A stretch of DNA of 64,000 nucleotides from Rubrivirga sp. SAORIC476 (lineage in GTDB: Bacteria > Bacteroidota > Rhodothermia > Rhodothermales > Rubricoccaceae): contig NZ_MVOI01000003.1 of NCBI RefSeq assembly GCF_002283555.1, positions 918,798 through 982,797 on the forward strand, written 5' to 3'. Both the position numbers and the translations under genes were made by a program. The notes under the pieces are model-generated. The model did no database searches and was not told where the DNA came from. It worked only from the letters and a program-made list of their open reading frames with translations. Positions 27,301 through 46,260 of the stretch are shown piece after piece; positions within the stretch are counted from its first letter, which is position 1; each line of letters opens with the position of its first letter.

Positions 27301-27387
27301 GCCTTGAGCCACCGCCACGGAGGCCATTCCCAGCAGCAGCGCGAGAGCGAGAACCGCGCGGAGGGAGGAAGACGTTGCGAGACACAT
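24364..27387 (-). CDS. TonB-dependent outer-membrane receptor
   Basis: This is predicted to import pectin oligosaccharides across the outer membrane with energy from TonB. The 1007-residue protein has a signal peptide (MCLATSSSLRAVLALALLLG), a carboxypeptidase-regulatory-like domain of about 28-105 (GVVTDAAEGTTLPGANVFI), a plug of about 130-260 with LRGLSGAFTNVTVDGV, and a long beta-barrel ending in the aromatic/hydrophobic C-terminus DFGLRLAL. No SusD-like gene accompanies it, unlike classical Sus pairs; it resembles the TonB receptors of Xanthomonas and Caulobacter carbohydrate loci. The start was chosen at the signal peptide; the frame upstream runs through the operator region. Its promoter region carries two operator types. 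Confidence 0.92.
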   Translation of the reverse strand: MCLATSSSLRAVLALALLLGMASVAVAQGTLRGVVTDAAEGTTLPGANVFIQGTSLGAATGVEGEYQVRSIPAGDYVLRASYVGYENREIPISIVDGQTVTLDIELSPSGVLGEVVVSGQLEGQRAAINQQLSSNTIVNVVSEAKIQELPDANAAESIGRLPGVSVQRSGGEASQITLRGLSGAFTNVTVDGVKLSPTDAASRSVDLSTISQGSLAGIELYKALTPDRDGDAIAGSVNLVTRRAPRSREVRVDVLGSYNELAADASQYDADFRYGERFIGGLLGVQLSGNLERRNRSREEYDPSYDCSFNDFTVCQIDDLQLDYTAETRERQGAGLILDLNTPDGGFLKLSGLYNQTSRNFITYGRNYPTTGDLLLYTVRDRDQTIRVFTGALAGENNLLGLKANWGTSYSRSGSDFPFDYQLSFTEPSTTDADGNPESGIAPVPTDVRRGELEGIIPYALNNLDKSYLYSAFASDEQSSDSDLGAFLDLERTFSLGTGASWALKVGGKYRSKSRSRDRSQLFSPYYNEPFPRFVQQPDGTIVPKDFSGSSFEDLELFNNRLILASNFVASSDLNRDLFGRFTLAPVFDRDLLREWYEYNLTGFTDQAGTNPEYELNREPEADFYDITERVGAGYLMSTVDLGRRVTWIAGLRVEREDNDYASKFAPTGLQGFPVPSGAIRDTSATYDQTIWLPNTHLSLRPTDFLTVRLAAYRALARPDFNNRLANVVARNNGFFFPGNSITLGNPNLRSATAWNYEINTSFYGPRLGLFGVSAFYKRIGDYFQVINGLSYTGNAVFDSLGIDYQSPYGNSRFQLRVPFNSAQPTTVYGVEVEHQTSLGFLPGPLSGFVLGYNFSVVRSSTFIPRVRIETTYIERPPFPPIAQVAYIPYEEEQKLQEQPDFFANVSLGYDFRSFSARASVFHQAAYNTSFAGFTRTGADNLRGGYTRVDLAFTQAIGDRLRLLLNVNNLSGVEESSLQYRPFLDRTLVNNSEIYGTTVDFGLRLAL

Positions 27388-27394
27388 GAGCAAG

Positions 27395-27406
27395 GGAAGC
27401 GCTTCC
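27395..27406. promoter_or_regulatory. Perfect AAGCGCTT-type palindrome before the TonB receptor start
   Basis: GGAAGCGCTTCC is a perfect 12-base palindrome with a central CG. It lies only 7 bases upstream of the receptor ATG (minus strand), downstream of the predicted promoter, where a bound LacI-type protein would act as a roadblock. A second, partial copy sits in the promoter spacer at 27474-27485. Confidence 0.6.
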
Positions 27407-27450
27407 GGCGAGGATCGGCAGAATGCCCCGGGAGGGTCCCCGGGGCTGGA

Positions 27451-27490
27451 GTTACCGGTTAAGCTATAGGGGCGGAAGCGCTTTGTCAAG
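27451..27490 (-). promoter_or_regulatory. Receptor promoter with two operator types
   Basis: On the minus strand TTGACA (27489-27484) and TATAGC (27468-27463) are separated by 15 bases. The spacer contains AAGCGCTT exactly (27483-27476). The -10 is followed at once by CTTAACCGGTAAC (27463-27451), the operator type also seen before uxaB and uxaA. The promoter would therefore read signals from two regulators, one shared with the mannan locus and one specific to uronates. Confidence 0.6.
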
Positions 27491-27516: not shown

Positions 27517-28347
27517 CTACCGGAGGTCGGTCATCGCGACGAACTGCATGTCGCCGAAGTCCTGGTTCTCGCCGCCCATCGCCCAGCAGAACGTGTATGC
27601 CCCGGTTCCGGCCCCGGCGTGGATGGACCAGCCCGGCGAGAGCACCGCCTCCCCGTCGCGGGTCAGCAGCGTCCGCACCTCCTGCGGCTCGCCCATCATG
27701 TGGAAGACCACGTCCTCGGGGTCGACGTCGAAGTAGAGGTAGACCTCCGTCCGTCGCGCGTGGGTGTGGGCGGGCATCGTGTTCCAGACGCTGCCGTCCC
27801 GGATCTCGGTGATGCCCATGACCAGCTGGCCGCTCTCGACGCCGCCCGGCCGGACGTACTTGAACAGGTCGCGGCGGTTCGCCTTGGCCTGGCTGCCCAG
27901 CTCCTCCAGCTCCGCCTCGGCCTTGCGGATGAGCGTGGTCGGATGCTCGGCGTGACACGGGTAGCTGACGAGGTAGTAGCGCGCCGGGGTCGCGGCGTCG
28001 TCGCTGGCGAACGAGACCGCCTCGCTGCCGCGCCCGACGTAGAGCAGGTCGCGGTTGCCGAGGGCGTACGTCTCCTCCCCCACCATCACCGTCCCGGCCC
28101 CGCCGATGTTGAGGATGCCGACCTCCCGACGCTCGGTGAACGACCCCGCTGCCAGTTCCTCCGGCACGCCGAGGTCGAGCGGACCGTCGGTCGGCACGGC
28201 GCCGCCCAGGACGACGCGGTCCAGGTCGACGAAGCGGAACGTGACCTGGCCGTCCTGGAAGAGGTCCTGGACGAGGAAGCGGTCTCGCAGTTCGGCGGTC
28301 GTGAGGCGCTTCGTGCGTTCGGCGTCGGGAAGGGTATGGAGAGACAT
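27517..28347 (-). CDS. kduI: 5-dehydro-4-deoxy-D-glucuronate isomerase
   Basis: This converts 5-keto-4-deoxyuronate (from unsaturated galacturonides) to 2,5-diketo-3-deoxygluconate in the cytoplasm. At 276 residues it has the normal length of the KduI cupin family. The zinc site is visible as PAHTHARRTEVYLYFD near 195-210 (HxH and Glu) with a later His in PGWSIHAG. The conserved segment GAGTVMVGEETYALGNRDLLYVG is present. It lies downstream of kduD (56-base gap) and upstream of the receptor promoter, so it is the end of the PL9-kduD-kduI unit. Confidence 0.95.
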   Translation of the reverse strand: MSLHTLPDAERTKRLTTAELRDRFLVQDLFQDGQVTFRFVDLDRVVLGGAVPTDGPLDLGVPEELAAGSFTERREVGILNIGGAGTVMVGEETYALGNRDLLYVGRGSEAVSFASDDAATPARYYLVSYPCHAEHPTTLIRKAEAELEELGSQAKANRRDLFKYVRPGGVESGQLVMGITEIRDGSVWNTMPAHTHARRTEVYLYFDVDPEDVVFHMMGEPQEVRTLLTRDGEAVLSPGWSIHAGAGTGAYTFCWAMGGENQDFGDMQFVAMTDLR

Positions 28348-28403: not shown

Positions 28404-29165
28404 CTACCGCGCCATCCAGCCGCCGTCGACCGTGACGACGGTGCCGGTGACGTAGTCGGAGGCGCGCGAGGCGAGGAAAACGGCCGCGCCGCCGAGGTCG
28501 GAGGCCTCGCCCCAGCGGCCCGCCGGGATGCGCTCCAGGATCTGGCGGTTGCGCGTCTCATTCTCCTGCAGCGCGGCCGTGTTGTCGGTGCGGATGTAGC
28601 CCGGCGCGATCGCGTTGACCGTCACGCCCTGCCCGGCCCACTCGTTGGCGAGCGCCTTCGTGAGCCCGGCCACGCCGTGCTTGCTGGCCGTGTACGCCGG
28701 GACCGTCACGCCGCCCTGGAAACTCAGCAGCGACGCCACGTTGACGATCTTGCCCGCGCCGCGCGCCAGCATCGGCGCGCCGATGTGCTGGCAGAGCTGG
28801 AAGACGGCCGTGAGGTTCGTCTGGACGACGTGCTGCCAGTCTTCCAGCGGGAACGCGACGGCCGGGTGGCGGCGGATCGTGCCCGCGTTGTTGACCAGGA
28901 TGTGGATCTCGCCCGCGGCCTCGAACGCCGCGTCGGCCAGAGCGTGCGGGCCGTCGAGATCCGACAGGTCGGCCTCGACCTGCCACGCCCGACGCCCGAT
29001 CCCGCGGACGGCGGTCGCCGTCTCGTCGGTGCCGCGGCGCCGGGTGGACGCACAGACGACGTCCGCGCCCGCCTCGGCGAGGGCGACGGCGAGGGCCTGC
29101 CCGATGCCGCGGCTGGCGCCGGTGACCAGGGCGGTCTTGCCAGAAAGGGAAAACAGGTCGCTCAT
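28404..29165 (-). CDS. kduD: 2-dehydro-3-deoxy-D-gluconate 5-dehydrogenase
   Basis: A short-chain dehydrogenase of 253 residues that reduces 2,5-diketo-3-deoxygluconate to KDG. Motifs are TGASRGIG (nucleotide binding, near residue 15), NNAG (near 92), a catalytic Ser in VASLLSFQGG and YTASK (Tyr/Lys near 155-159), and a C-terminal VTVDGGWMAR that is typical of KduD. The ATG overlaps the stop of the PL9 gene by 4 bases (ATGA). Together with kduI directly downstream, this assigns the reaction with good confidence over other SDR activities. Confidence 0.93.
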   Translation of the reverse strand: MSDLFSLSGKTALVTGASRGIGQALAVALAEAGADVVCASTRRRGTDETATAVRGIGRRAWQVEADLSDLDGPHALADAAFEAAGEIHILVNNAGTIRRHPAVAFPLEDWQHVVQTNLTAVFQLCQHIGAPMLARGAGKIVNVASLLSFQGGVTVPAYTASKHGVAGLTKALANEWAGQGVTVNAIAPGYIRTDNTAALQENETRNRQILERIPAGRWGEASDLGGAAVFLASRASDYVTGTVVTVDGGWMAR

Positions 29166-30676
29166 CGGGAGACGGTGATCGGAAGGGAGAACTGCGAGAC
29201 GGCCGTCCGCAGCCGGACGACGTACAGGCCGCCGGCGAGGTCGGCGGCGTCGAGGGCCAGCAGCGACCGGCCGCCGGGGAGCGGACCGTCGGCCAGCACG
29301 GCCACCTCGCGGCCGAGCACATCGTGGACGGACACCCTGGCGACGCGGCTCGCGTCCAGCGTGACGGCCACCCGCGTGCCGGTACGGATCGGGTTGGGGC
29401 CGGCAAGGGCCAGCGCCTGCGACGCCTCGGCGCCTGGCTCCCCGGCCGTGCCTCCCCCGTCGAACTCGTAGGCGCCCAGGTCCGGCGCGGCGCCTGCGTA
29501 GGGGAGCCCCACGTCCTCGCCGAGGTCGACCAAGTCGCTGCCTGCGACGAGGTGCAGGAAGCCGTTGAGGTCCGGCAGGCTCCCGTCCGCCTGGCGGGGG
29601 CCGTCGGCGCCGGTGCCGTCGAGGCTGACGAAGTCAGCCGCGGAGGCGCGGTCCACCGACGAGTTCCACGAGTTCGCGGCCTCGTCGGTCACCGAGCCGT
29701 CCATGCGGACGCTCGCCGCCAGCGAGACGTTGTTGCGCAGCACGTGCGGCGCCTGCTCGTCGATGGCCGGGTCGTCGTCGAAGTTGAAGTTGACGCCCCG
29801 GTTCAGGTAGGCCGTGTTGTGGTAGACGGTCACCCCGCTCGCGTTGCCGTTCACGTCGAAGCCGTGCGCCAAGTGGTCCCAGGCCACGTTCCGGATCAGC
29901 ACGTGCGCGCCGTTCCCCTTGCCCAGCTTGAAGCCGTTCGAGTCGCCCCGGTAGGCCGGGTCGCCCCAGATGTTGAAGCCGTTGTGGAAGGCCCAGTTGC
30001 CCTCGATCCGGACGCCCTGCTGGGCGGGATCGTCGAGGCTCCAGAAGTCGTAGCCGTCGTCGGAGTTGGCCCAGGCGCGGTTGCCGCGGAGCACGTTGCC
30101 CGGCCCGACGCCGAACTTGATCGCGAAGCCGTCCGCGTTCTCGCCGTTGTTGCCCGGGTCGTAGTTCTCGTACGAGTCGTTGTTGAGCAGCAGGTTGTAC
30201 GCCGACCCGTCCTCCATCTGGATGCCCGAGTCGCCGTTGTAGCGCGACACCATCTGCTCGACGATGGTGTAGGACGCCTGCTTGACGTAGACGCCGTTGT
30301 CGTTCGACCGCTCGGCGACGAGCCCCTTGAGGTGGACGTAGTCGCCCCGGAGGTCGAACCCGCGCCCGGCACCGGTGAAGTCGAACACGGCCGGCTCGGT
30401 GTCCTCGGGGTAGGCCCAGATGTGGAGGTACGCCCCGTCCGTCCCGCTCTTGTCGATGCGGATGGAGGACGTGGACGTGTAGGTCCCGCCGCGGACGTAG
30501 ATCGTGTCGCCCGCCGCGGCCCGCGAGAGCGCGTTGGCGAAGGTGATCGGCGACGTGATGGTGCCGGAGCCGATCACGCTCCCGTTCGGCGCGACGAAGT
30601 AGGAGCGCTGGGCGGAGGCGGTCAGGCCGACCGAGCCCAGCACCAGCAGGGCGAGAAGAGAGAGAAAGCGGGTCAT
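29162..30676 (-). CDS. PL9 pectate lyase with T9SS tail
   Basis: A secreted pectate lyase of 504 residues: signal peptide MTRFLSLLALLVLGSVGLTASA, a PL9 right-handed beta-helix of about 25-390 and a T9SS sorting domain of about 425-504 (GPNPIRTG, LAGGLYVVRL). Family PL9 features are visible: ENADGFAIKFG and NSDDGYDFW supply the calcium-ligand aspartates, and SNGFKLGKG (Lys250) carries the lysine used as the catalytic base in characterised PL9 enzymes. Many Asn-rich turns support the helix fold. It is translationally coupled to kduD by an ATGA overlap. Confidence 0.92.
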   Translation of the reverse strand: MTRFLSLLALLVLGSVGLTASAQRSYFVAPNGSVIGSGTITSPITFANALSRAAAGDTIYVRGGTYTSTSSIRIDKSGTDGAYLHIWAYPEDTEPAVFDFTGAGRGFDLRGDYVHLKGLVAERSNDNGVYVKQASYTIVEQMVSRYNGDSGIQMEDGSAYNLLLNNDSYENYDPGNNGENADGFAIKFGVGPGNVLRGNRAWANSDDGYDFWSLDDPAQQGVRIEGNWAFHNGFNIWGDPAYRGDSNGFKLGKGNGAHVLIRNVAWDHLAHGFDVNGNASGVTVYHNTAYLNRGVNFNFDDDPAIDEQAPHVLRNNVSLAASVRMDGSVTDEAANSWNSSVDRASAADFVSLDGTGADGPRQADGSLPDLNGFLHLVAGSDLVDLGEDVGLPYAGAAPDLGAYEFDGGGTAGEPGAEASQALALAGPNPIRTGTRVAVTLDASRVARVSVHDVLGREVAVLADGPLPGGRSLLALDAADLAGGLYVVRLRTAVSQFSLPITVSR

Positions 30677-30694: not shown

Positions 30695-32146
30695 TTAGGA
30701 GACGCGCGTGCCGTTGACGGTCACGTCGTCGAAGGTCAGCCCCTCGACGTGTTCGATGACGCTCCCCTGCTCGACGCCGGCGAACCGGCAGTCGGCGAGG
30801 TGGACGTCGCGGATGGGGGCGTGGGGGTAGCCGATCAGGTAGAGGGCGTACTCGCTCCGCTGGCTCGTCACGCGCCGCACGTCGATGTCGCGGACGGTCG
30901 GCGGGAAGTCGCCGGCGTCGCCCTCCTCGTAGAGGAAGTTGATCCGGACGATGGCGTCGGCGACCTGGCCGGCGGTCACGTCGCGCATGTAGACGCCCTC
31001 GACGACGCCGCCCCGGATGGAGTTGGTCTTGATGCGCAGGACGCGCTCCAGGTTGGGCGAGTCCATCTGGCAGCGCTCGGCGAACACGTCGCGCGCGCCG
31101 CCCGACATCTCGCTCCCGATGACCACGCCGCCATGCCCGTCGCGCATCGTACAGTCGCGGACGACCACGTTCTGGATGGGCGCCGCCAGCCGCCGCCCAT
31201 CGGCGTTGCGGCCGGACTTGAGCGCGATGCAGTCGTCGCCGGTGTCGAAGGTGCAGCCCTCGATCAGCACGTCGGTGCAGGACTCGGGGTTGCATCCGTC
31301 GTTGTTGGGGCCGTGCGAGTTGGCCGTCACCCCGCGCACCGTCACGTTCGTGCACAGCGTCGGGTGGAGCAGCCACATCGGCGAGCGGACGACCGTCACG
31401 CCCTCGATGAGGACGTTCCGGCAGCGTAGGAACTCGACGAAGCTGGGCCGCAGGTAGTCGCCGGTCCCGTAGACGCGCTCCTCGACGGGCACGCCCGCCT
31501 CGGCCTGGGCGAAGAGGCGATCGCGGGCCTCGCGCTGCTGGGGCATCCCCTCCGTCCAGCCGTGGCGGTTGTCCTTCCAGGGTCCCTTCCAGGTCCACCA
31601 CGCCTCGCCTTCCGCCTGCCCGTCCAGCGTCCCGCCGCCGGTCACGGCCACGTTCTCCTGGTCGACGGCGTAGATCAGCGGCGAGTAGTTCATCAGTTCG
31701 ACCCCCTCCCACCGCGTGTAGACGGCGGGCAGGTACGCCTCCGGGTCCGTCACGAAGCGCAGCGTCGCGCCCTCCGAGACGTGGAGTTCGACGTTCGAGA
31801 GCAGGTGGATCGGCCCGGTAAGCCAGATGCCCGGCGGCACCACGACGCGCCCGCCGCCAGCGGCGTGGACGGCCTCGACGGCGCCGCGGAAGGCGTCGGT
31901 GGCGACGACCTCTCCCCCCTCGACCGCCCCATGGGCCGTCACCGGCTCGTCGCGGTCGGGGAACCGGGGCGCCTGGATGCGGGCCAGGATGCCGGGCACG
32001 CGGTCCCACGCGGCGGCGTCCCGGCCTGCGGCCACGGCCTCCGCCGACGTGCCGAGGCGGGCGCAGCCGGGGAGGACGGCCAGGGCGCCCGCGCCGAGCG
32101 CGAGCGTACGGGCGAACTGACGGCGGGAGAGGGTCGGGTCGGTCAC
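30695..32146 (-). CDS. GH28 polygalacturonase, Tat-exported
   Basis: This hydrolyses alpha-1,4 galacturonan, yielding saturated galacturonate for the UxaC branch. The 483-residue GH28 beta-helix has the catalytic aspartates in NNDGCNPES and TGDDCIALKSG (near residues 225 and 247), the GHGG motif (near 285) and RIKTN (near 315). NNDG in place of NTDG is common in exo-type and bacterial members. The N-terminus has a Tat motif (SRRQFARTL) and an LPGC lipobox-like site at 25-28. The start codon is GTG. It lies 18 bases downstream of... the next operon member on the minus strand is PL9, and the triple-repeat protein ends 4 bases before its start. Confidence 0.92.
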   Translation of the reverse strand: MTDPTLSRRQFARTLALGAGALAVLPGCARLGTSAEAVAAGRDAAAWDRVPGILARIQAPRFPDRDEPVTAHGAVEGGEVVATDAFRGAVEAVHAAGGGRVVVPPGIWLTGPIHLLSNVELHVSEGATLRFVTDPEAYLPAVYTRWEGVELMNYSPLIYAVDQENVAVTGGGTLDGQAEGEAWWTWKGPWKDNRHGWTEGMPQQREARDRLFAQAEAGVPVEERVYGTGDYLRPSFVEFLRCRNVLIEGVTVVRSPMWLLHPTLCTNVTVRGVTANSHGPNNDGCNPESCTDVLIEGCTFDTGDDCIALKSGRNADGRRLAAPIQNVVVRDCTMRDGHGGVVIGSEMSGGARDVFAERCQMDSPNLERVLRIKTNSIRGGVVEGVYMRDVTAGQVADAIVRINFLYEEGDAGDFPPTVRDIDVRRVTSQRSEYALYLIGYPHAPIRDVHLADCRFAGVEQGSVIEHVEGLTFDDVTVNGTRVS

Positions 32147-32150: not shown

Positions 32151-34208
32151 TCAGCGGACGACGGTGAGGGTGCGGGTCTGCGACGTGCCGCCCGCCGTCA
32201 GGCGAACGACGTAGACGCCAGCGGCCAGCCCGTCGGCGCGGACCGTGACGTCGTGGGTGCCAACGCCCCGGGGGCCGGTGGCGAGCACGGCGACGCGCTG
32301 TCCCAGCGTGTTGAACAGCGCAATCTCGACATCCCCCGCCTGGGCGAGGTCGTAGCGCAGCGTGGCCGAGGACCGGGTCGGGTTCGGGGCGCTCGGGTGG
32401 AGCACCACGCCCCCCGCGGCGGGGGCCTCGTCCCGGGCGACGATCGCCGGGTCGATGGCCGTGCCGTGGACCGTCATCGCCTGGAGCAGCAGGTAGCGCG
32501 TCGCGCTCGCGTTGCCGCCGGCCAGGTAGGGGTACACGCGGACATAGATCGAGTCGCCCTCCAGGACGTCGGTCTGGATCGGGTACGTGCGGAGCGTCGG
32601 GCCGCCGAAGTCGCCGTCGCCTGCCGGGAAGTCCTCCTCCAGCGCGACCGCGTCGGAGAAGTCGGCGTTGAGCGAGTAGAACACGCTCGCGGCCATCTCA
32701 CTCGTGCCGTCGCCGTGGACGTAGACCGAGACGGAGTCGACGCGGAACGCGAACTCGGGGTCCGGGCCTGCGGCGAACTCGACGTAGCGGGTCGGGTCGA
32801 TGGCCGTCTCGACCTGCCACTGGATGCCCTCACCCAGCCACCAGCGCTGGAACGGGCCGTACGGGCCGACGGCGTCGCCGGCATCCCGGAGGTCGCCGTC
32901 GTAGTCGCGGACTTCCAGGTGCGAGGCGCGGACCGTCGCGCCGCCGAGGTCAGGACCGGTCGCGCTCACCGCCGTCGTGTCGGACGCGCTCAAGGTCCAG
33001 AGCACGCCCTCGACCGAGAGCGGGGCCTCGGTCGTGCCCGAGATGGTCACGTCCTGGAGCAGGAGGTACCGCCCGACGCTCGGGTCGCCGCTGCTGAGGT
33101 ACGGATACACGCGGACGTAGATCGAGTCGCCCGCCGCGACCGCGAGATCGAGGGGGTACTCCCGGAGCGTCGGGCCGCCGAAGTCGCCGTCGCCCGCCGG
33201 GAAGTCCTCCTCCAGCGCGACCGCGTCCGAGAAGTCGGGCGTGGTGGCGTAGAACACACTCGCGGCCATCGCGCTCGTGCTGCCGCCGTGGACGTAGAGC
33301 GACACGCCGTCCACGTAGAACGTCTCGCCGGCGTCGGCGCCCGCGGCGAACTCGACGTAGCGGGTCGGGTCGATGGCCGACTCGACAGGCCACTGGATGC
33401 CGTCGCCGCGCCACCAGCGCTGGAACGGGCCGAGCGGGCCCGGCGCGTCGTCCGCGTCGCGGAGCACACCAGTGTAGTCGCGCACGACGACGTCCGAGCT
33501 GCGCACCGGGGCGCCGCCCAGGCCGTCTGCGGTGGACGAGACCGCCGTCGTGTCAGTCTCCGTGAGCGACCAGTTGACGCCACGGGCCGGCTCGGGCTCA
33601 GGAATCGACCCGTCGCCCGCGATCACCATGTTCTGGAGAAACAGGTAGCGCCCCGAGCTGGGGTTGCCGCCGCCGAGCCACGGGTACACGCGGAGGTACA
33701 GGGTCTCGCCGTCCATCAGCGTCTCGCTGATGTCGTAGCTGAACGTCCCGACAGCCTCGCGCGAGATCTGGATGTCCACCTCCAGCGGCGACGGGCTGCC
33801 GAACGCCGCATCGGTGTCGATGAACACGCTGGCATCCATCTCGCCCGTCCCCCCCGCGTTCATCACGAAGTCGATGTCGGTGAGCGTGAGCGAGCCGCCC
33901 GCCGGGGCGGAGACCGCGAACTGGACGTAGCGCGTCGCATCCGGGCCGCTCTCGACCGGCCATTCAGCGCCGTCGAGGTACCACCGCTGGAAGGTCCCGA
34001 GCGGGCCGCCGGACCCGTCCTGCAGCGTGCCGTTGTAATCGCGGGCGACGAGCACGCCCGACGTGACCGGGCTGCCGACGGCGGCTCCGGTCTGCTCGGA
34101 GACCCCGAGGCCGTCGGCCTCGGTGAGCGCCCAGGTAACGCTGGACGCGTCCTGAGCGGAGACGGGGAGAACCGCCAGCACGGCGGCGAGGAGGAGCAAG
34201 AGTCTCAT
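32151..34208 (-). CDS. Secreted protein of three tandem unnamed domains plus T9SS tail
   Basis: No catalytic domain is recognised in this 685-residue protein. A signal peptide (1-19) is followed by three homologous units at about residues 24-198, 211-391 and 402-582, then a T9SS sorting domain (605-685, SAPNPTRS to the C-terminus). Each unit has the order W-x-L..., VxRDYxGxLxD, GxFQRWW, WPVES, RYVxFA, ASVFY, DxxYVRVYPYL and GRYLLLQ. Two further copies form the N-terminus of the neighbouring pectin methylesterase, so a pectin-binding beta-sandwich is a reasonable inference. Units 2 and 3 are almost identical over part of their DNA (see repeat entry). It sits between CE8 and GH28 and is probably displayed on the cell surface. 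Confidence 0.85.
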   Translation of the reverse strand: MRLLLLLAAVLAVLPVSAQDASSVTWALTEADGLGVSEQTGAAVGSPVTSGVLVARDYNGTLQDGSGGPLGTFQRWYLDGAEWPVESGPDATRYVQFAVSAPAGGSLTLTDIDFVMNAGGTGEMDASVFIDTDAAFGSPSPLEVDIQISREAVGTFSYDISETLMDGETLYLRVYPWLGGGNPSSGRYLFLQNMVIAGDGSIPEPEPARGVNWSLTETDTTAVSSTADGLGGAPVRSSDVVVRDYTGVLRDADDAPGPLGPFQRWWRGDGIQWPVESAIDPTRYVEFAAGADAGETFYVDGVSLYVHGGSTSAMAASVFYATTPDFSDAVALEEDFPAGDGDFGGPTLREYPLDLAVAAGDSIYVRVYPYLSSGDPSVGRYLLLQDVTISGTTEAPLSVEGVLWTLSASDTTAVSATGPDLGGATVRASHLEVRDYDGDLRDAGDAVGPYGPFQRWWLGEGIQWQVETAIDPTRYVEFAAGPDPEFAFRVDSVSVYVHGDGTSEMAASVFYSLNADFSDAVALEEDFPAGDGDFGGPTLRTYPIQTDVLEGDSIYVRVYPYLAGGNASATRYLLLQAMTVHGTAIDPAIVARDEAPAAGGVVLHPSAPNPTRSSATLRYDLAQAGDVEIALFNTLGQRVAVLATGPRGVGTHDVTVRADGLAAGVYVVRLTAGGTSQTRTLTVVR
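32591..32665. repeat. Direct DNA repeat, copy in unit 3 of the triple-domain gene
   Basis: About 75 bases here match 33164-33238 with only about two differences in the first 73, at an offset of 573 bases (191 codons). Other parts of the two units are much more diverged. This points to recent duplication or gene conversion between domain units 2 and 3. Confidence 0.75.
33164..33238. repeat. Direct DNA repeat, copy in unit 2 of the triple-domain gene
   Basis: Partner of the repeat at 32591-32665. It encodes the DFSDAVALEEDFPAGDGD segment and following residues, which are identical in both units. Confidence 0.75.
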
Positions 34209-34273
34209 GGGACTGTGGGGAATGTGGAACAGGATGTCCGGGGCCAGCGCGGTTCGGCACGCCTCCCGAACGG

Positions 34274-37231
34274 CTAGCGGACGACGACGAGCGACTGGGT
34301 ATGCGCCGCGGTCGCGGTCGTCAGGCGGACCAGGTAGACCCCTGCCGGAAGCGGCGACGCGTCGAGTGAGGCCTCGTGGGCACCGGCTGCGAGCAGCCCA
34401 TCGGCCAGCGTGAGCACGTGGCGGCCGACGGCATCGTAGACGCGGACCGACGCGGGCCCGGACTCGGCGAGGTCGTAGCGGAGCGTCGCCGTGCCACGCG
34501 TGGGGTTCGGAAACACGGTGTGGAGCGCCGAGGCGAGCGGGGCCGACGGCCCGGCCTCCGATGGCGTGCTGGCACGCACCTCGGGCAGCCAGTCGGCCGC
34601 GTAGGGCGTCGCGGCGGAGGTGCGGGCAAAGATGGCCTCCAGCGTCAGCGCGTCCACCTCGGCGGGCGTGAGGACCGAGGCCCACGGGACGCGTGCGCTC
34701 GTGTCGGCGCCGGGGCCGGTGTTGCCGCCCTCGGCGTACATCGCCGTCAGGTGGTTCTGCGTGCCCGCCCACTCCAACCACCCGGCCGGGCGGATGTGGG
34801 CGCCAATCTCGGAGTCCACGAACACGGTCTGGCCGTACGGCCCCCACGGGCGGCCGAGCGTGCCGCCGTCGACGCCCGCGTCGGCCGTGAGCGTGGCGTT
34901 GCGGAAGACGTAGCCGTAGGCAAAACCCAGCTCCGTGTTGGCCGCCGTGATGGGCGCGCCGTCGCGCTTGCTCCGGATCTCGCAGTCGTCGAAGACGGCG
35001 ATGGAGCGGCCGAAAATGAAGTCGACCGTGCCTTCGATGGTACAGTTCTGGTGGTAGATGCGGCCGTAGCTGTGCGTGTAGTACGTGTCCTGGAAGCCCA
35101 GCATCTGGACGTCGTAGAACGCCATCCGGTCGCCGCGCACGCGGAGGGCCACGGCCTGCGAGCCGTTGTAGGTGTTCTGGAACGTGATGTCCTCCGCGAC
35201 GAAGTCGTCCGCGTCGATGGCGGCGGTGTAGGAGGTGTAGGTGCCCAGCGTGACGCCGTCGACCACCTTGCCCGAGTAGTCGTCCCAGGTGATGACGGTG
35301 CTCTCGGCGCCGTCGCCGACCAGGTGGACGTTGATCTTGCCCGCCTCCAAGATCACCTTCTCGGCGTAAGTCCCCGCCTTGACGCGGACCGTGACCGGCC
35401 CGGTGTAGAGCGAGGGCACGGCGTCGAAGGCAGCCTGGACCGTCGTGTAGTCCCCACTCCCGTCCTGGGCAACGACGATCTCGATGGGCGGCGCGGGCGC
35501 CTCGGTCGTAAACGTGACCTCGGCACCGTAGGCCGTGCCCTGGTCGTTGGTGGCGTAGGCGCGGGCGGTGTAGGCCGTCTCCTGCGTCAGCCCTGCGATC
35601 TCGGCCGAAAACGAGCCCAGCCCCTCGCCTGCCTCGGCACACAGGTCGGCCGTCGTGGGCGTGCCGGTGGCCGAGACACAGACGCCGCGCGCGGTCACCG
35701 GCAGGCCGCCGTCGAACGTGACCGCGCCCCCGAGCACCGCCGTCGTGACCAGCACGTTCGACGCCTCGGCCGACGTGACGGTCGGGACGGAGAGCGCGCC
35801 GAGCGTCGTGAACGTCTGTTCGTCTCCGTAGGCCGTGCCCGCGCTGTTGGTGGCGTAGGTGCGGACGTAGTAGGTCACGTCCGGCGCCAGCCCGCCGAGC
35901 GTGCTCACGAACGCGCCGACGCCGTCGCCGTCGACCGTCGCGCCGTCGGCCACCGTCGGGTTTGGCGCGGTGCCATAGGCGACGCCGCGCGCCGTCACGG
36001 CTCCCCCCCCGTCCGAGGCGACGGTGCCGCCGCTCACTGCCGAGGTCGTCGAGATCGACGTGACCGCGTCGGTGCTGACCGTCGCGAGGGTGACGATGGG
36101 GGTGCCGGTCGTCTCACCCGTCACGACGACCCCCGCGATGTTGAAGTACTTGCCGCTGTCGCGCCCGCCGATGAGCCAGGGGTAAACCCGGACCGTGAGC
36201 GAGTCGCCGTCGGCGACGGCCTCGGAGAGCGGGTATGCCACGTCCGCCAGCGCGGAACTGGGCAGCATGGCCGCTTCGTCCAGGACGGTCTCGGTGGCGA
36301 AGCCGTCCGCCGAAACGCGGACGCTGGCGCGGAGGTCATTCGAGCCGCCGCTGTTGCCCAGGCGGAGCGCGAGACCGGTGGCCGTGAGCGTCGTCCCCTC
36401 CTGCGGCTTGACCACGAACTGAGCGTAGCGGGCGAGGTTGACCTCGGTCTCGTCGGGCCAGTAGCCGAGCCCATTGCCCGGCCCACCCGGCGCGTACACG
36501 CGCTGGCTCCCCTCCGACCCGGCGTAGTCGCGGATGACGTACTCGCTGGTGACGGTCTCGTCCAGAGCGACGATGGCGCCCGCCGTGGTGGCCGTCGTCG
36601 TCGTCGCGCCGTCGAGGAGCCACGTCGCCGTCGCGGGTGTCGCCGCACTGGCGGCCGTGCCCGAGACCGACACGTCGCGCAGGAAGAGGTACTTGCCCGA
36701 CGACGTGGAGCCGCCCGGCAGGTAGGGGTACACGCGGACGTAGAGCGAGTCGCCGTCCGGCACCGTCACGTCCACGGGATAGTCGAACGGCCCGATCACG
36801 TCGCGCGAGGCCGCGACGTCCTCCAGGACCGTCGCCGTCGCGAAGGACGGGTCGGTGTCGTAGGCCAGCGTCGCGCGCAGGTTGCCCGTCCCGCCGCCGT
36901 TGACGGTGAGCGCGATGGCCGTGACGGTCAGCGCCGCGCCCCCGGTGCCCGCCGCCGCGAACTGGACGTAGCGGTCCGGATCGGGCGCGTCCTCGTCGGG
37001 CCAGTTGTCGCCCGTGTACCAGCGCGCCAGTCCAGCGGTGCCGTCGCCGAGCGAGCCGGTGAAGTCGCGGAAGGTCAGGTTGGACTGCTGGGTGCCCGAG
37101 CCGGCCGCCGCCCCGGAGGTCGCGGTCACGGCGAGGTCAGAGGTCAGCGACCAGCTCACCGAGGCGGGCGACTGGGCGGCACTAGCGGAGACCACCAAAG
37201 CGGCCACCAAGATCGCAGAGAGAAGCTTCAC
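34274..37231 (-). CDS. CE8 pectin methylesterase with two unnamed N-terminal domains and T9SS tail
   Basis: A 985-residue secreted enzyme that removes methyl esters from homogalacturonan. Order: signal peptide 1-19; two copies of the unnamed domain found in the adjacent triple-repeat protein (about 24-192 and 201-373); two FN3-like modules ending YATNSAGTAYGDEQ and YATNDQGTAYGAEV (377-575); CE8 beta-helix (about 585-885) with GFQDTYY, VDFIFG and LGRPWG carrying the catalytic Asp pair and Arg; T9SS domain (about 905-985, FPNPTRG). The start is a GTG inside an ACCGGT-type operator, which is unusual; no better ATG-linked signal peptide is visible. Confidence 0.9.
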   Translation of the reverse strand: MKLLSAILVAALVVSASAAQSPASVSWSLTSDLAVTATSGAAAGSGTQQSNLTFRDFTGSLGDGTAGLARWYTGDNWPDEDAPDPDRYVQFAAAGTGGAALTVTAIALTVNGGGTGNLRATLAYDTDPSFATATVLEDVAASRDVIGPFDYPVDVTVPDGDSLYVRVYPYLPGGSTSSGKYLFLRDVSVSGTAASAATPATATWLLDGATTTTATTAGAIVALDETVTSEYVIRDYAGSEGSQRVYAPGGPGNGLGYWPDETEVNLARYAQFVVKPQEGTTLTATGLALRLGNSGGSNDLRASVRVSADGFATETVLDEAAMLPSSALADVAYPLSEAVADGDSLTVRVYPWLIGGRDSGKYFNIAGVVVTGETTGTPIVTLATVSTDAVTSISTTSAVSGGTVASDGGGAVTARGVAYGTAPNPTVADGATVDGDGVGAFVSTLGGLAPDVTYYVRTYATNSAGTAYGDEQTFTTLGALSVPTVTSAEASNVLVTTAVLGGAVTFDGGLPVTARGVCVSATGTPTTADLCAEAGEGLGSFSAEIAGLTQETAYTARAYATNDQGTAYGAEVTFTTEAPAPPIEIVVAQDGSGDYTTVQAAFDAVPSLYTGPVTVRVKAGTYAEKVILEAGKINVHLVGDGAESTVITWDDYSGKVVDGVTLGTYTSYTAAIDADDFVAEDITFQNTYNGSQAVALRVRGDRMAFYDVQMLGFQDTYYTHSYGRIYHQNCTIEGTVDFIFGRSIAVFDDCEIRSKRDGAPITAANTELGFAYGYVFRNATLTADAGVDGGTLGRPWGPYGQTVFVDSEIGAHIRPAGWLEWAGTQNHLTAMYAEGGNTGPGADTSARVPWASVLTPAEVDALTLEAIFARTSAATPYAADWLPEVRASTPSEAGPSAPLASALHTVFPNPTRGTATLRYDLAESGPASVRVYDAVGRHVLTLADGLLAAGAHEASLDASPLPAGVYLVRLTTATAAHTQSLVVVR

Positions 37232-37281: not shown

Positions 37282-38310
37282 CTAGCGCTGGACGCGGCCC
37301 GAGCCGTCGCCCGCGGCGAGGGCGTCCACCTCAGCGCGCGTGACCAGGTTGAAGTCGCCCGGGATGGTCTGCTTGAGGCACGACGCCGCCACGGCGAACT
37401 CGAGCGCGTCGCGCGTGTCGTCCTTCTGGAGCAAGCCCGCGATCAGGCCCGAGGCGAACGAGTCGCCCCCGCCGACACGGTCGACGATCTGGATGTCGTA
37501 GCGGGTCGAGCGGACCGGCGTGGCGCAGTCCTTATCGTCGTGGAGGATGGCGCTCCAGCCGTTGTGGCTGGCCGAGAACGACTCCCGAAGCGTGATCGCG
37601 ACCGCCTCGAAGTCGAACTCGCGCTTCAGCTTCTTGGCTAGCTCGACGTAGCCCGCCTCGTCCAGCTCGGCGCCGTGCACGTCGGTCGCGCCCGCGGTCA
37701 TCCCGAGGCACTTGTCGGCGTCCTCCTCGTTCGCGATGCACACGTCGACGTGCTCCATGAGCGGCCGCATGGTGGCCTGCGCCTCGTCCGTCGTCCACAG
37801 CTTCTTGCGGAAGTTGAGGTCGCACGAGACGGTCGCGCCCGCGGCCTTCGCGGCCCGGGCCGCCTCGGTGACCGTCCGGCGGGCCGTCGCGCCGAGCGCG
37901 GGCGTGATGCCGGTGAAGTGGAACCAGCGGGCCCCCTCCATCGCGGCCTCGAGGTCGACTTCGTCGGGCGTCAGCGTCGTCACGGCGGCGTCGGCGCGGT
38001 CGTAGATGACCTTGCTCGGCCGCTGGCTGGCGCCCGTCTCCAGGAAGTAGATGCCCACGCGGTCGCCGCCGCGCACGATGAACCGGTCCGAGACGCCGTA
38101 GCGCCGCAGGTGGTTGACGGCCGACTGGCCGATCTCGTGGGTCGGCAGCTTGGAGACGAAGTAGCTCTCCAGCCCGTAGCCCGCCAGCGCGACGGCCACG
38201 TTGGCCTCGCCGCCGCCGTAGGTCACGTCGAAGGACTGGGACTGGACGAAGCGCGTGAAGCCCGGCGTCGAGAGCCGGAGCATGATCTCGCCGAGGGTGA
38301 CGACTTTCAT
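37282..38310 (-). CDS. kdgK: 2-dehydro-3-deoxygluconate kinase
   Basis: This phosphorylates KDG to KDPG with ATP, joining the saturated and unsaturated uronate branches. The 342-residue PfkB-family protein has the N-terminal GEIMLRLSTPG, the substrate-region YGGGEANVAVALAGYG, and the C-terminal PfkB signature DRVGGGDSFASG with the catalytic Asp (near 288). Length and the absence of a signal peptide fit a cytoplasmic KdgK. It lies 21 bases downstream of kdgA in the uxaB-kdgA-kdgK unit. Other PfkB sugar kinases are excluded mainly by context. Confidence 0.93.
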   Translation of the reverse strand: MKVVTLGEIMLRLSTPGFTRFVQSQSFDVTYGGGEANVAVALAGYGLESYFVSKLPTHEIGQSAVNHLRRYGVSDRFIVRGGDRVGIYFLETGASQRPSKVIYDRADAAVTTLTPDEVDLEAAMEGARWFHFTGITPALGATARRTVTEAARAAKAAGATVSCDLNFRKKLWTTDEAQATMRPLMEHVDVCIANEEDADKCLGMTAGATDVHGAELDEAGYVELAKKLKREFDFEAVAITLRESFSASHNGWSAILHDDKDCATPVRSTRYDIQIVDRVGGGDSFASGLIAGLLQKDDTRDALEFAVAASCLKQTIPGDFNLVTRAEVDALAAGDGSGRVQR

Positions 38311-38331
38311 TCGAGGTACGGAGTCGATGGG

Positions 38332-38982
38332 TTAGAGCGACGCGCGGCCGTCCTCCACCGACTGGCGGAGGGTGCGCGCGTGCGCGGTGAGGGTGGCCCA
38401 GTCGCCGTCGGCGATGGCCTGCTTGTCGAGCAACGCCGAGCCCACGCCGACGGCGACGGCACCGGCGCGGACCCAGTCGCCCGCGTTCGTCAGCGAGACG
38501 CCGCCGGTCGGCATCAGCTTCAGATGCGGCATCGGGGCGAGGACGCCCTTGAAGAAGGCCATCCCGAGCACGTCGGCCGGGAACACCTTGACGGTGTCGG
38601 CGCCCGCCTCGGTGGCAGCGAGGATCTCGGTCGGCGTGAAGCAACCCGTCATGGCCGGGACGCCGAGGCGGTGGGACTCGTCGATGATCTCGGTCTTGAA
38701 CACCGGGCTGACGACATAGCGCGCGCCGGCGTCGACAGCCCGGCGCGTCGTCTCGGCGTCGAGCACGGAGCCCACGCCCACGGTCACGGCGTCACCCAGT
38801 TCGCGGCTCACCGCGCCGATCACCGCGAGCGCGTCGGGCGTGGTCATGGTGACCTCGATGGCCGTCACACCGCCCTCGGCGAGGGCCTCGGCCAGCCGCA
38901 CCAGGCGGCTCGAATCGGCCATGCGGACGACGGCGACGGCGCCGCTGTCGAGCACGGCATCGAGGATCTGGTGACGGGTCAT
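38332..38982 (-). CDS. kdgA: KDPG/KHG aldolase
   Basis: This cleaves 2-keto-3-deoxy-6-phosphogluconate to pyruvate and glyceraldehyde 3-phosphate. The 216-residue Eda-type TIM barrel shows IEVTMTTPDAL with the catalytic Glu (near 43), GVGSVLDAE, and the Schiff-base lysine in DTVKVFPAD (near 133), then MPTGGVSL for phosphate binding. It lacks a leader. It is between uxaB and kdgK and completes the pathway from galacturonate to central metabolism. The name eda is the usual alternative symbol. Confidence 0.94.
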   Translation of the reverse strand: MTRHQILDAVLDSGAVAVVRMADSSRLVRLAEALAEGGVTAIEVTMTTPDALAVIGAVSRELGDAVTVGVGSVLDAETTRRAVDAGARYVVSPVFKTEIIDESHRLGVPAMTGCFTPTEILAATEAGADTVKVFPADVLGMAFFKGVLAPMPHLKLMPTGGVSLTNAGDWVRAGAVAVGVGSALLDKQAIADGDWATLTAHARTLRQSVEDGRASL

Positions 38983-39034
38983 GGACGGGCGCCCTCACGG
39001 GCGGAAACAGAGAGTGACAAGAGAGCGATCCGGC

Positions 39035-40468
39035 TCATGCGTCGAAGCAGCTCGCCACGACCGCACGGCACCCGTCGCGCTCGATGGCGACCAGCGCATC
39101 CGCGACCGGCTCCGCGACGACCTCCAGGTCCCACATGCGAAGCGCGGCAGCGGCGAACGCGCGCAGCGCCGCCTCGTCGGTCGGGTCGACGCCCTCCCAC
39201 CGCGCGCGCCAGTCGTCGGCCGCAGCGTCGGCCGCGAGTCCGTGGATCTCGCCCGGACGGGTCGCAGACAGAAATGCGGCCACGCCCACGCAGAGCAGCG
39301 GAGGGGCCTCCTCCATCTTCTCCCAGTAGCGCCGAACCGACGGGGCCACGCGGACACCCAGCTTGGCGGTCTGCTGGAAGGTGATGTCGCGCAGGGCGTG
39401 GTCCACGAACGGGTTGGCGAACCGCTCGATCACGTCGTCGGCGAACGCCGCAGCCATCGCCAGGTCGATGTCGAGGCTGGGCACGACCTCGTCCCGGATC
39501 AGACGCCGGATGAAAGGCCCCACCACCTCGTCGTCCATCGCCGCGCCGACCGTCGACAACCCGCAGAGGAGCGCCGTCGGGACGGTGGCTGTGTGCCCTC
39601 CGTTCAGGATGCGGACTTTCCGCTCGCGGTACGGCGTCAGGTCGTCCGTGACGACGATTCCATCGAGGCCGGTCAGCGGGAGGCGCGTGGCGAGGTCGGC
39701 GCCGCCCTCGATGGCCCAGAGGCGGTACGGCTCGGCGACGGTAAGTAAGTCGTCGGTGTAGCCCACCCGGTCGTACAGCGCGGGCAGATCGTCGGGGGTG
39801 CCCGGCACGATCCGGTCGACGAGCGTGTTGCAGAACGTGACCGAGCGGTCGAGCCACTCGGCAAAGCGGCGGTCCAGATGCCAGCGCTCGGCGTGCGCGA
39901 GGACGATCTCCCGGAGGCGGTCTCCGTTGCCGTCGATCAGCTCGCACGGAAGGATGACCACGTCTCCCCCACGGTAGCCGACCGACTCGGCCCGGGTGGA
40001 CAGCACGGCGGCCAGTTTGCCGGGGAACGACCGTGGCGGATCGAGATCGGGTCGATCCTCGGGGTCGTCGGCGATGCCCACCTCGGTCGTGTTGGAGACG
40101 ATCAGGGCGAGGTCGGGGCTGCGCGCCAGGTCGAGGACCGCGGGCCAGTCGTCGGACGCGGCGACCGCACGGGAGACCGACCCGATCACGCGGGTCTCGT
40201 CGACCCGCTCCCCCTCGCGGAGGCCTCGGATGCAGAGCGTGTAGAGGCCATCCTGGTCCCCGAGCACCTGAGTCCGGCCGCTGCCGGTCGAGCCGACCAT
40301 CACCACCCGCCCGGCGTCGAATCCGGCGCGGTTGGCGTCGTCGATGAACGCGTCCGGGAGGCCGCGAAGCAGCGCTCCCGTGCCGAATTGGAGGACTCGC
40401 TCCGGGAGCGCTTCCAACGGAGGTGAAACGGAACGCCCCAGGCGGGGCAGATGGACGTCAGTGGGCAT
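39035..40468 (-). CDS. uxaB: Tagaturonate reductase
   Basis: This reduces D-tagaturonate to D-altronate with NADH. The 477-residue protein belongs to the polyol-specific long-chain dehydrogenase (mannitol dehydrogenase) family: an N-terminal Rossmann segment RVLQFGTGALLRGLPDAFID, a middle ILPCELIDGNGDRLREIV, and the catalytic-lysine segment with KVRILNGGHTATVPTALL, where KxxxxNxxH is characteristic. UxaB is preferred over UxuB because UxaC, UxaA and pectinases surround it and no mannonate dehydratase is present. It has its own promoter with an ACCGGT-type operator and is followed by kdgA and kdgK. Confidence 0.93.
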   Translation of the reverse strand: MPTDVHLPRLGRSVSPPLEALPERVLQFGTGALLRGLPDAFIDDANRAGFDAGRVVMVGSTGSGRTQVLGDQDGLYTLCIRGLREGERVDETRVIGSVSRAVAASDDWPAVLDLARSPDLALIVSNTTEVGIADDPEDRPDLDPPRSFPGKLAAVLSTRAESVGYRGGDVVILPCELIDGNGDRLREIVLAHAERWHLDRRFAEWLDRSVTFCNTLVDRIVPGTPDDLPALYDRVGYTDDLLTVAEPYRLWAIEGGADLATRLPLTGLDGIVVTDDLTPYRERKVRILNGGHTATVPTALLCGLSTVGAAMDDEVVGPFIRRLIRDEVVPSLDIDLAMAAAFADDVIERFANPFVDHALRDITFQQTAKLGVRVAPSVRRYWEKMEEAPPLLCVGVAAFLSATRPGEIHGLAADAAADDWRARWEGVDPTDEAALRAFAAAALRMWDLEVVAEPVADALVAIERDGCRAVVASCFDA

Positions 40469-40472
40469 GCGA

Positions 40473-40518
40473 CTTTACCGGTTAAGTCAATGATAGTACC
40501 CGCTGCGCGTCGGCGCAA
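40473..40518 (-). promoter_or_regulatory. uxaB promoter with ACCGGT-type operator
   Basis: On the minus strand TTGCGC (40518-40513) and TATCAT (40495-40490) are separated by 17 bases. CTTAACCGGTAAAG (40486-40473) starts 3 bases after the -10 and ends 4 bases before the uxaB ATG. The same 14-base sequence occurs before uxaA. A bound repressor would sit on the transcription start. Confidence 0.7.
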
Positions 40519-40598
40519 GGGGCCCGGCTTCCATCTCGACCGCCCTCCAGACCGGGCACACCTCTCCTGCCGGAGGTCCGAACGGGGACGCTGCAGGC

Positions 40599-41618
40599 CT
40601 ACAGCGTAGGCACGGTATGGTCCGTCACGAAGTCGACATCCAGAACGACATGGGCCTCCTCGCCGCGCTTCGGCCGCCCCTCGCCCTCGATCTCGCGGAG
40701 CAGCAGTTCGACCGCCCGCAGCCCCATCTCGCGCGTCGGCTGCCGGAGATAGGCGTCCGAGAGCGGGGCGAACACGCTGATCGCGTCGTCGCCGAACGAG
40801 ACGAGGTAGACGTCGTCGGCCAGGCCCACCTCGGCGAGCGCGCCGTGGACCCCGATGCCGACCGGCTGCGAGACCGCGAAGACGGCCTTCGGCTCGGCAC
40901 CTGCCGCGAGCAAGTCCCGCATGGCGCGGTACCCGAACCACTCGTCGAACCCGCCCGACACGATCCGGTCCTCGCGGACGGGCAGGCCGTGGGCGCGCAG
41001 GGCGTCCTCGTAGCCCGCCCGGCGCTCCCGGCCGATGCCCACCTCCCCGGTGCCGGCGATGTGGTAGATGTCGTCGTAGCCCAGCCCGATCGTGTGCTCG
41101 ACGGCGCGACGGGCCGCCGCGCGGTCGTCCACGGTGACGCTGCCGAAGCCGAGGCCGTCGATCTGGCGGTCGAAGAACACCAGCGGGACCCCCTGCTGGC
41201 GGACGCGCTCGTAGATGCCGAGGTCGGGCGCCTCGCGCGACACCGACACCAGCAGGCCGTCCACGCGCATCGACAGGAGCCGCTCGATGTGGGTGCGCTC
41301 CAGCGCCGCCGACTCGCTCGAGACCGCCAGCAGGATGCCGTAGCCGCGCCGGGTCGCCTCCTCCTGGACCGCCTCGATCACGGACGAGAAGAACGTGTGG
41401 GCGATCTTCGGCACCACCACCCCGAGCGTGTGCGACCGGTTCGAGGAGAGCGAGCGCGCCACCAGGTTGGGCGTGTAGCCCATCTCGGCAGCTGTCTTCT
41501 TGACCAGCGCCCGCGTGTCCTCCGAGATGTCGCTGTGGTCGCGGAGGGCCTTCGAAACGCTCACCTTCGTCAGCCCGAGGCGGTCGGCGATGTCGACGAG
41601 GCGGACTTTTTTGACCAT
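40599..41618 (-). CDS. LacI-family transcriptional regulator of the pectin/uronate locus
   Basis: A 339-residue LacI/GalR-type regulator. The N-terminal helix-turn-helix is VRLVDIADRLGLTKVSVSKAL (residues about 5-26), followed by the hinge helix NLVARSLSSNRSHT and a periplasmic-binding-protein-like sensor domain (GVVVPKIAHTFFSSVIEAV, DGLLVSVSREAPD, VTVDDRAAARRAVEHTI). Its position between uxaB and the TRAP genes, and the central-CG palindromes in the locus, make the TTnACCGGTnAA sites its probable operators; this is inference. The effector is probably a KDG-type intermediate or galacturonate. No matching operator is seen just before its own gene, 132 bases downstream of dctM. Confidence 0.9.
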   Translation of the reverse strand: MVKKVRLVDIADRLGLTKVSVSKALRDHSDISEDTRALVKKTAAEMGYTPNLVARSLSSNRSHTLGVVVPKIAHTFFSSVIEAVQEEATRRGYGILLAVSSESAALERTHIERLLSMRVDGLLVSVSREAPDLGIYERVRQQGVPLVFFDRQIDGLGFGSVTVDDRAAARRAVEHTIGLGYDDIYHIAGTGEVGIGRERRAGYEDALRAHGLPVREDRIVSGGFDEWFGYRAMRDLLAAGAEPKAVFAVSQPVGIGVHGALAEVGLADDVYLVSFGDDAISVFAPLSDAYLRQPTREMGLRAVELLLREIEGEGRPKRGEEAHVVLDVDFVTDHTVPTL

Positions 41619-41750
41619 GTCTGGAGGCGTGAGCAGTGCGTCGGAGGCGAGTCGCCGCCCCCTCCCCTCAGGGGACGGAGAGACAATCGATCGAGCCGAC
41701 CGTCACGTGGTTCGGACGTGTCAGCGATCGCCTAAGGTCCGACACGACGC

Positions 41751-43046
41751 TCAATACCCCAACAACCGCGGCAGCCACAGGCTCAGGGCCGGCACGAAGG
41801 TCACCACCAGGAGCGCCACCACCATCGCCAGGAAGAGCGGCACCAGCGGGCGCAAGACCTTCGTGATGGTCGTGTTCGCCACCCCCACGCCGACGAACAG
41901 CACCGCCCCGACGGGCGGCGTGCACAGCCCGATGCACAGGTTCAGCACCATGATGATGCCGAAGTGGATCGGGTCGATGCCCAGGCCGACCGCGATCGGC
42001 AGGAAGATGGGCGTGAAGATGAGCACCGCCGGCGTCATGTCCATGAACGTGCCGACCACCAGCAGCACCAGGTTGATCATCAGCATGATCGCGATCGGGC
42101 TGTCGGTCAGCGCCAGCAGCGAGGCCGTCACGTTCTGCGGGATGTTGGCGTAGGCCATGATCCACGACATGGCCAGGCTCGTCGCGATCAGCAGCATCAC
42201 CACGGCCGTCGTCGTGGCCGAGTCGAGCAGGATGCGGGGCAGGTCGGAGACGGAGATCTCGCGGTAGACGAACGCGAGCACGAACGCGTAGAGCACCGCG
42301 ACCGCCGCCGCCTCGGTGGCCGTGAACACGCCCCCCACGATGCCGCCCATCACCACGACCAGCAGAAACAGGCTCGGGATGGCCGAGACGAACCGGTGGG
42401 CCACCTCCCCGAACGAGGACCGCGCCTCGCGCGGGTAGCCGCGCCGGAGCGCGATCACGCTCGCGACCGCCATCAGCAACCCGCCGACGACCAGCCCGGG
42501 GACGTAGCCCGCCAGGAACAGCGACGCGATCGACACGCCGCCCGAGGCGAGCGAGTAGATGATCAGCACGTTCGAGGGCGGGATGATCAGCCCCGTCGTC
42601 GACGCCGTGATGTTGACCGCGGCGCCGAACTCGCGGTCGTAGCCCTCGCGCTCCATGACCGGCGCCATCACGCCGCCGATGGCGCTGGCGGCCGCCACGG
42701 CCGAGCCCGAGATGGCCCCGAACAGCATCGACGCCAGGATGTTGACGTGGGCCAGTCCGCCCGGCAGCGTCCCCAGGATGGACTTCGCCAGGTCGATCAG
42801 CCGTCGCGCGATGCCGCCGCGGTTCATCAGCTGACCGGCCAGGATGAAGAACGGGATCGCGAGCAGCGTGAAGCTGTCGAGCCCCGTCGCCATGCGCTGG
42901 GCGACCGTCGTGACGGCCGGGGCGGGCAGGATGCTGAGCATCATCGCCAGCACCGTCGAGATGCCGATGCTGTAGGCGACGGGCACCCCCAGGGCGAGGA
43001 GCGAGAGAAACGAGCCGGCGAGGACGGCGATGTCGAGCCACTCCAT
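41751..43046 (-). CDS. dctM: TRAP transporter large permease
   Basis: The DctM subunit, an inner-membrane protein with about 12 hydrophobic segments that couples solute uptake to a sodium gradient. The 431-residue sequence has hallmark blocks GVPVAYSIGIS, IPFFILAGQLMNRGGIARRLIDLA, GAISGSAVAAASAIGGVMAP, TTGLIIPPSNVLIIYS and CIGLCTPPVGAVLFVG. The ATG overlaps the dctQ stop as TGATG. With the binding protein and small subunit it forms a complete tripartite importer, probably for galacturonate or unsaturated oligogalacturonate released in the periplasm; the substrate is inferred from context only. Confidence 0.95.
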   Translation of the reverse strand: MEWLDIAVLAGSFLSLLALGVPVAYSIGISTVLAMMLSILPAPAVTTVAQRMATGLDSFTLLAIPFFILAGQLMNRGGIARRLIDLAKSILGTLPGGLAHVNILASMLFGAISGSAVAAASAIGGVMAPVMEREGYDREFGAAVNITASTTGLIIPPSNVLIIYSLASGGVSIASLFLAGYVPGLVVGGLLMAVASVIALRRGYPREARSSFGEVAHRFVSAIPSLFLLVVVMGGIVGGVFTATEAAAVAVLYAFVLAFVYREISVSDLPRILLDSATTTAVVMLLIATSLAMSWIMAYANIPQNVTASLLALTDSPIAIMLMINLVLLVVGTFMDMTPAVLIFTPIFLPIAVGLGIDPIHFGIIMVLNLCIGLCTPPVGAVLFVGVGVANTTITKVLRPLVPLFLAMVVALLVVTFVPALSLWLPRLLGY

Positions 43047-44753: not shown

Positions 44754-44756
44754 GGG

Positions 44757-46253: not shown

Positions 46254-46260
46254 TCGCCGT

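Follow-up and report, generated by a model that had tools for sequence, protein, structure and literature searches.

The triple-unit protein and its pectinesterase neighbor

Two adjacent genes in the window (by which we mean the whole 64,000-nucleotide stretch of DNA that was analyzed) encode proteins carrying copies of the same domain, here called the unit. Their features, all on the minus strand, are as follows.

32151..34208 (-), triple-unit secreted protein, 685 aa, without a catalytic domain; orthologues in L084, L085/L034, and L068/L035
34152..34208 (-), signal peptide of the triple protein, aa 1-19, without a lipobox Cys, read from the sequence
33588..34148 (-), unit A1, aa 21-207 of the triple protein
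33021..33587 (-), unit A2, aa 208-396 of the triple protein
32460..33020 (-), unit A3, aa 397-583 of the triple protein
32163..32387 (-), T9SS type A sorting domain, aa 608-682 of the triple protein (PF18962, E 4e-6; TIGR04183, E 4.8e-9)
34274..37231 (-), CE8 pectin methylesterase, 985 aa, with two N-terminal units
36647..37168 (-), unit B1, aa 22-195 of the CE8 protein
36107..36646 (-), unit B2, aa 196-375 of the CE8 protein
35483..36106 (-), two Fn3-like linker domains, aa 376-583 of the CE8 protein (weak fn3, Big_10, and FN3_DSCAM matches, below cut-offs)
34670..35482 (-), CE8 pectinesterase catalytic domain, aa 584-854 (PF01095, E 1.4e-71)
34283..34516 (-), T9SS sorting domain, aa 906-983 of the CE8 protein

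The original prediction had placed five copies of a beta-rich domain here, three of them in a noncatalytic secreted protein, and BLASTP, domain calls, and a genome search all bear this out. The triple gene consists only of a signal peptide (MRLLLLLAAVLAVLPVSAQ), three units of about 185 aa, and the T9SS tail, and the CE8 protein opens with two more units. All ten pairs among the five units are homologous by BLASTP, at 27-70% identity with E values of 1e-9 to 1e-89, which far exceeds chance, and a genome-wide profile search finds exactly five copies, all in these two proteins. While the five homologous units stand as predicted, their size and motifs are more variable than had been claimed: including linkers, they span 174-189 aa rather than 175-181 aa, and B2 carries QRVY and WPDE motifs and lacks RW. 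Divergence among the five is greatest in the CE8 units.

With its signal peptide and C-terminal Por_Secre_tail, the triple protein has the makeup of a T9SS type A cargo; the genome encodes 122 T9SS tails. Judging from the sorting tail, the protein may be retained at the cell surface by this system. An AlphaFold model of the full-length protein, built on three sequences, is of low confidence (pLDDT 57.5, pTM 0.34).

A pectin utilization locus

The genes on either side of the pair, also on the minus strand, include the following.

30695..32146 (-), GH28 family galacturonidase, the next gene of the operon (PF00295, E 5.4e-27; NF049892 alpha-galacturonidase, E 3.6e-106, below cut-off)
29162..30676 (-), PL9-like (PelN-like) secreted pectate lyase (PF22842, E 2.7e-14; NF041899 PelN, E 2.1e-55, below cut-off)
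28404..29165 (-), KduD-like short-chain dehydrogenase (PF13561, E 3.5e-59; the KduD name is taken from context)
27517..28347 (-), KduI isomerase (PF04962, E 8.4e-28)
24364..27489 (-), TonB-dependent receptor of the TonB-Xanth-Caul type (TIGR01782, 329.6 bits)
22609..24312 (-), T9SS-tailed receptor partner (P0003), probably a beta-helix by sequence
37282..47845 (-), galacturonate import and catabolism genes (KdgK-like kinase, KDPG aldolase, UxaB-like dehydrogenase, LacI regulator, DctM/DctQ/DctP TRAP transporter, and UxaA; 46148-47845 unassigned)

A near-complete route from pectin to galacturonate thus surrounds the triple gene, and pectin is therefore the likely substrate. Two open reading frames (27464-28561 and 41668-43041) were rejected as genes, being wrong frames over KduI and DctM, and two others beside the locus (46148-47845 and 21207-22772) have no Pfam match and may be wrong frames as well. 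A second pectinesterase protein in the window (14732-16708) is a GDSL esterase fused to CE8 and carries no units.

Sequence family status and predicted fold of the unit

Pfam, NCBIfam, and PHROG contain no family that covers the units of either window protein. When 18 units were scanned singly against Pfam, there was nothing except one chance match; none matched a Pfam CBM family, or the gingipain cleaved adhesin and MAM families, at E values up to 10, and the window proteins contain no Pfam CBM family. Profile searches of all PDB sequences recovered no homologue of the unit, and the only low E values there, to designed beta-trefoils, were short repeat matches that we took as chance. Also, no relative was found on plasmids, and no prior description of the domain was found in the literature. 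The expectation of an uncharacterized module is thus upheld as far as Pfam, NCBIfam, PHROG, and PDB sequences reach. Weaker matches (L060, L062, L063, L064, and L065) belong to a beta-rich domain of the RYFEFTV...LRIYGY type, which is common in secreted Bacteroidota proteins and for which no Pfam model was seen; these weak hits suggest that the unit may be a branch of that broad domain.

The AlphaFold model of unit A3 (18 sequences; pLDDT 91, pTM 0.89) is all beta and forms a beta-sandwich, a known CBM fold. The solved structures that it matches best include XG-34, which was derived from CBM4-2 (Z 11.6), TmCBM61 and a mannanase CBM (Z 11.4 each), and, at a Z of about 10, CBM22. Close behind are the meprin MAM domain (Z about 11) and the gingipain adhesin domains (Z about 10.5), which together span 10.4-11.2; identity to all of these fold matches is only 5-15%. 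A further match by fold (Foldseek E 5.6e-4) is 8x8h, deposited as the "carbohydrate binding domain of a putative pectate lyase"; it was not recovered by sequence search with the unit, and the literature yielded no paper that names it. The structural check therefore yields a CBM-type beta-sandwich closest to CBM4, CBM61, and CBM22 as well as to MAM and gingipain domains. Because the latter, which bind proteins, score nearly equal Z values, sugar binding does not follow from the fold by itself.

Host proteins and distribution

A profile built from the five units matched in 27 of 296 genomes sampled across the phylum Bacteroidota, and within a single class, a larger unit profile matched in 53 of 391 genomes. 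We defined strong hosts as proteins with a unit scoring at least 140 bits, of which there are 71 across Bacteroidota. A pectin-type catalytic domain is present in 48 of these (CE8 in 28, PL1 in 14, PL9 in 4, and GDSL esterase in 2), in which the unit is a discrete noncatalytic module within a carbohydrate-active enzyme, as CAZy uses the term. Some of the PL1 hosts have no clear Pfam call, and a middle domain common to seven corresponds to a solved pectate lyase (E 2.9e-98). The remaining strong hosts include stand-alone proteins made of a unit and a T9SS tail, and partners of the pectin TonB receptor; 12 of the 71 have no recognized pectin domain, such as the cohesin/Ig proteins L042 and L103. 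Below 110 bits, only 3 of 19 hosts are pectin enzymes.

These counts are to be read with the sampling in mind, as CE8 units went into the starting profile and some of the hosts are nearly identical to one another. Rebuilding the profile from the noncatalytic triple units alone limits the circularity, and it still returned 49 pectin enzymes among the top 70 hosts. Across ten genomes, 9 of 31 unit hosts contain a CE8 domain, whereas among the 1206 other T9SS proteins at most 16 do (Fisher p 1.7e-9); a recount gave 10 and 15, respectively, so that the test is conservative. The association of the unit with pectin enzymes is strong and extends over several unrelated catalytic families.

The main rival explanation draws on the fold comparison above. 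It holds that the unit is a spacer or scaffold beta-sandwich that distances enzymes from the cell or contacts other proteins of the operon, with the triple protein scaffolding enzymes around the receptor. That protein-binding MAM and cleaved adhesin domains match the fold nearly as well as CBMs speaks for it, and there is a precedent in DUF1735, a beta-sandwich domain of polysaccharide loci that has been read as a spacer (PMC11216935). Host architecture argues the other way. The unit is N-terminal in CE8 and PL hosts but C-terminal in GDSL and receptor-partner proteins, and the CE8 hosts already have Fn3-like linkers. Seven proteins of 311-350 aa (L043, L091, L095, L096, L101, L141, and L142) consist of a single unit and a T9SS tail, and several such stand-alone proteins lie among pectin genes; like the triple protein, they have nothing to space. 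The varied position and the stand-alone proteins are easier to reconcile with a binding module than with a spacer, and the link to pectin enzymes of unrelated catalytic families also weighs against a spacer or scaffold, which we consider unlikely.

Several host classes deserve separate mention. In tandem CE8 proteins (L041, L048, L051, L053, L087, L100, and L102), the last unit forms a class of its own, seen only in CE8 proteins, with a GWAKL motif and without the QR motif of other units. Two very large proteins (L088:5115-12083 and L040:5920-11397) carry a central unit followed by a pectate-lyase-type domain; the L040 protein has a second such domain at its N terminus, and the L088 protein has DUF4957/DUF5123 and an internal T9SS-tail match.

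Conservation of the triple protein and the unit tree

The triple protein occurs in four genomes from two families, namely the window genome, G300 and G301 of the same genus, and G219 of another family in the same order. In all four it has three units and is adjoined by GH28 and/or PL9-like genes and KduD, and the locus TonB receptor lies downstream wherever the contig extends far enough. In G300, no CE8 gene separates the triple protein from KdgK. A noncatalytic triple protein is thus a conserved member of the pectin operon in four genomes.

This setting also bears on the idea that the triple protein is a general adhesin or biofilm protein for host or matrix polymers other than pectin. Such a role would suit a noncatalytic, T9SS-secreted protein whose fold resembles the gingipain cleaved adhesin domains, but its fixed place inside the pectin operon of four genomes and the association of the unit with pectin enzymes make it improbable, more so than a spacer.

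A tree of the units places all twelve from the triple proteins in one group with unit B1 of the CE8 protein (SH-aLRT 97), and B2 groups with a CE8 unit of another genome (support 94). As B1 and B2 fall apart, the CE8 units differ in origin, and units are exchanged between enzymes and nonenzyme proteins.

A candidate ligand residue

In the unit alignment, position 176 is Lys or Arg in all 105 pectin-group units (K in 80 and R in 11, with a further 14 K from the last-unit class of CE8 proteins), whereas it is S, T, or Q in all 12 units of one clade found on nonpectin proteins. Position 160 is mostly Tyr in the pectin-group units and S or K in the 12-unit clade. From this alignment, the basic residue at position 176 is a candidate ligand residue that could pair with galacturonate carboxylates; the units without it form a single clade, and the correlation therefore counts as one event. 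The W at position 69 and the aromatic residue at position 166 are further candidates for the proposed site. The clade of distant units without the basic residue (L056, L057, L058, L059, L086, L134, and L143-L146), on SdrD-B, Sortilin/BNR, FG-GAP, and Big_3_5 proteins, has no pectin context.

The TonB receptor and its partner

The receptor scores 329.6 bits against TIGR01782 (TonB-Xanth-Caul; cut-off 310) and only 68.4 against the SusC/RagA model TIGR04056 (cut-off 368), so no SusD is expected at the locus. The SusD families PF07980 and PF14322 have no match in the locus, and their matches in the genome lie far off. The earlier suggestion that the triple protein replaces a missing SusD consequently falls away. 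That it is a functional stand-in, serving as the substrate lid of a SusC-type importer, is very improbable: a SusD gene is absent near the locus and present elsewhere in the genome, but the receptor is not of the SusC/RagA type, lies about 5 kb from the triple protein, and has another T9SS-tailed protein as its neighbor, and the A3 model is all beta where SusD is a helical, TPR-type protein (PMC2954216).

That neighbor, the receptor partner encoded downstream of the receptor, belongs to no Pfam family except for its T9SS tail. Four relatives, 37-39% identical to it (L108:1348-3681, L118:4322-6730, L123:4425-6767, and L128:5773-8094), have the N-terminal domain in common, carry one C-terminal unit before the tail, and adjoin a related TonB receptor.

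Proposed role in pectin capture

Taken together, these results lead us to favor, with a probability of roughly two in three, the reading that the unit represents an undescribed, pectin-specialized family of beta-sandwich CBMs and that the triple protein is a T9SS-displayed pectin-capture protein. The unit probably represents a new type of module for gripping pectin, with homogalacturonan or the side chains as the predicted ligand. The two copies in the CE8 protein would anchor the enzyme to its substrate. The triple protein would be exported, cross the outer membrane via the type IX system, and then be fixed on the cell surface, where its three tandem modules could hold pectin by avidity. Captured pectin may thereby be kept close to the operon's TonB receptor and to its secreted enzymes (GH28, PL9-like, and CE8), which would give the protein a part in uptake.

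A wider version of pectin capture is possible, and we offer it tentatively as less probable than the first. Here, the unit would be a Bacteroidota-wide pectin-binding family that has been exchanged among stand-alone proteins and enzymes of the CE8, PL1, PL9, and esterase types. The triple protein would then be a T9SS surface glycan-binding protein serving a SusD-free TonB receptor. If true, this would amount to a second way of building a surface glycan-uptake system.

To our knowledge, few modules that bind the pectin backbone have been described. Bacteroidota pectin methylesterases and lyases widely carry this unnamed unit, and naming it would annotate many "hypothetical" proteins and would supply a pectin probe. 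Pectin capture of this kind would also explain how T9SS bacteria without Sus lipoproteins keep an anionic polysaccharide at the cell surface.

Comparison with known systems

Among domains of similar fold, DUF1735 is likewise an unnamed beta-sandwich of Bacteroidota polysaccharide loci, but it is an N-terminal lipoprotein domain, and the unit has no Pfam match. MAM domains and the gingipain cleaved adhesin domains (K1-K3) resemble the unit in fold (Z 10-11), and the adhesins too occur in T9SS-exported Bacteroidota proteins; the unit has no Pfam match to them, and hosts and context differ. CBM4, CBM22, and CBM61 are beta-sandwiches of similar size (Z 10-11.6) on polysaccharide-degrading enzymes, often in tandem, but they share only 5-11% identity and no sequence family with the unit. 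CBM61 binds galactan, which is a pectin side chain. CBM77 and other pectin-binding modules are also noncatalytic parts of pectin enzymes in which basic residues are expected for an anionic ligand, yet they have no sequence match to the unit in Pfam.

For the triple protein, the closest parallels are SusE and SusF, which are also noncatalytic, secreted proteins with tandem binding-type modules, encoded in an operon with a TonB receptor and glycan enzymes. SusF has three binding modules, and the triple protein has three predicted CBM-fold units and no catalytic match. SusE and SusF are surface starch-binding proteins that hold starch near the enzyme (PMC11216935; PMC7618045). The triple protein differs from them in its unrelated sequence and fold family, in a T9SS tail and export route in place of a lipid anchor, and in a receptor without SusD rather than a SusC/SusD pair. 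By analogy, it would work like SusF, which offers a better comparison than SusD for its architecture, as a functional parallel rather than as a member of the same family.
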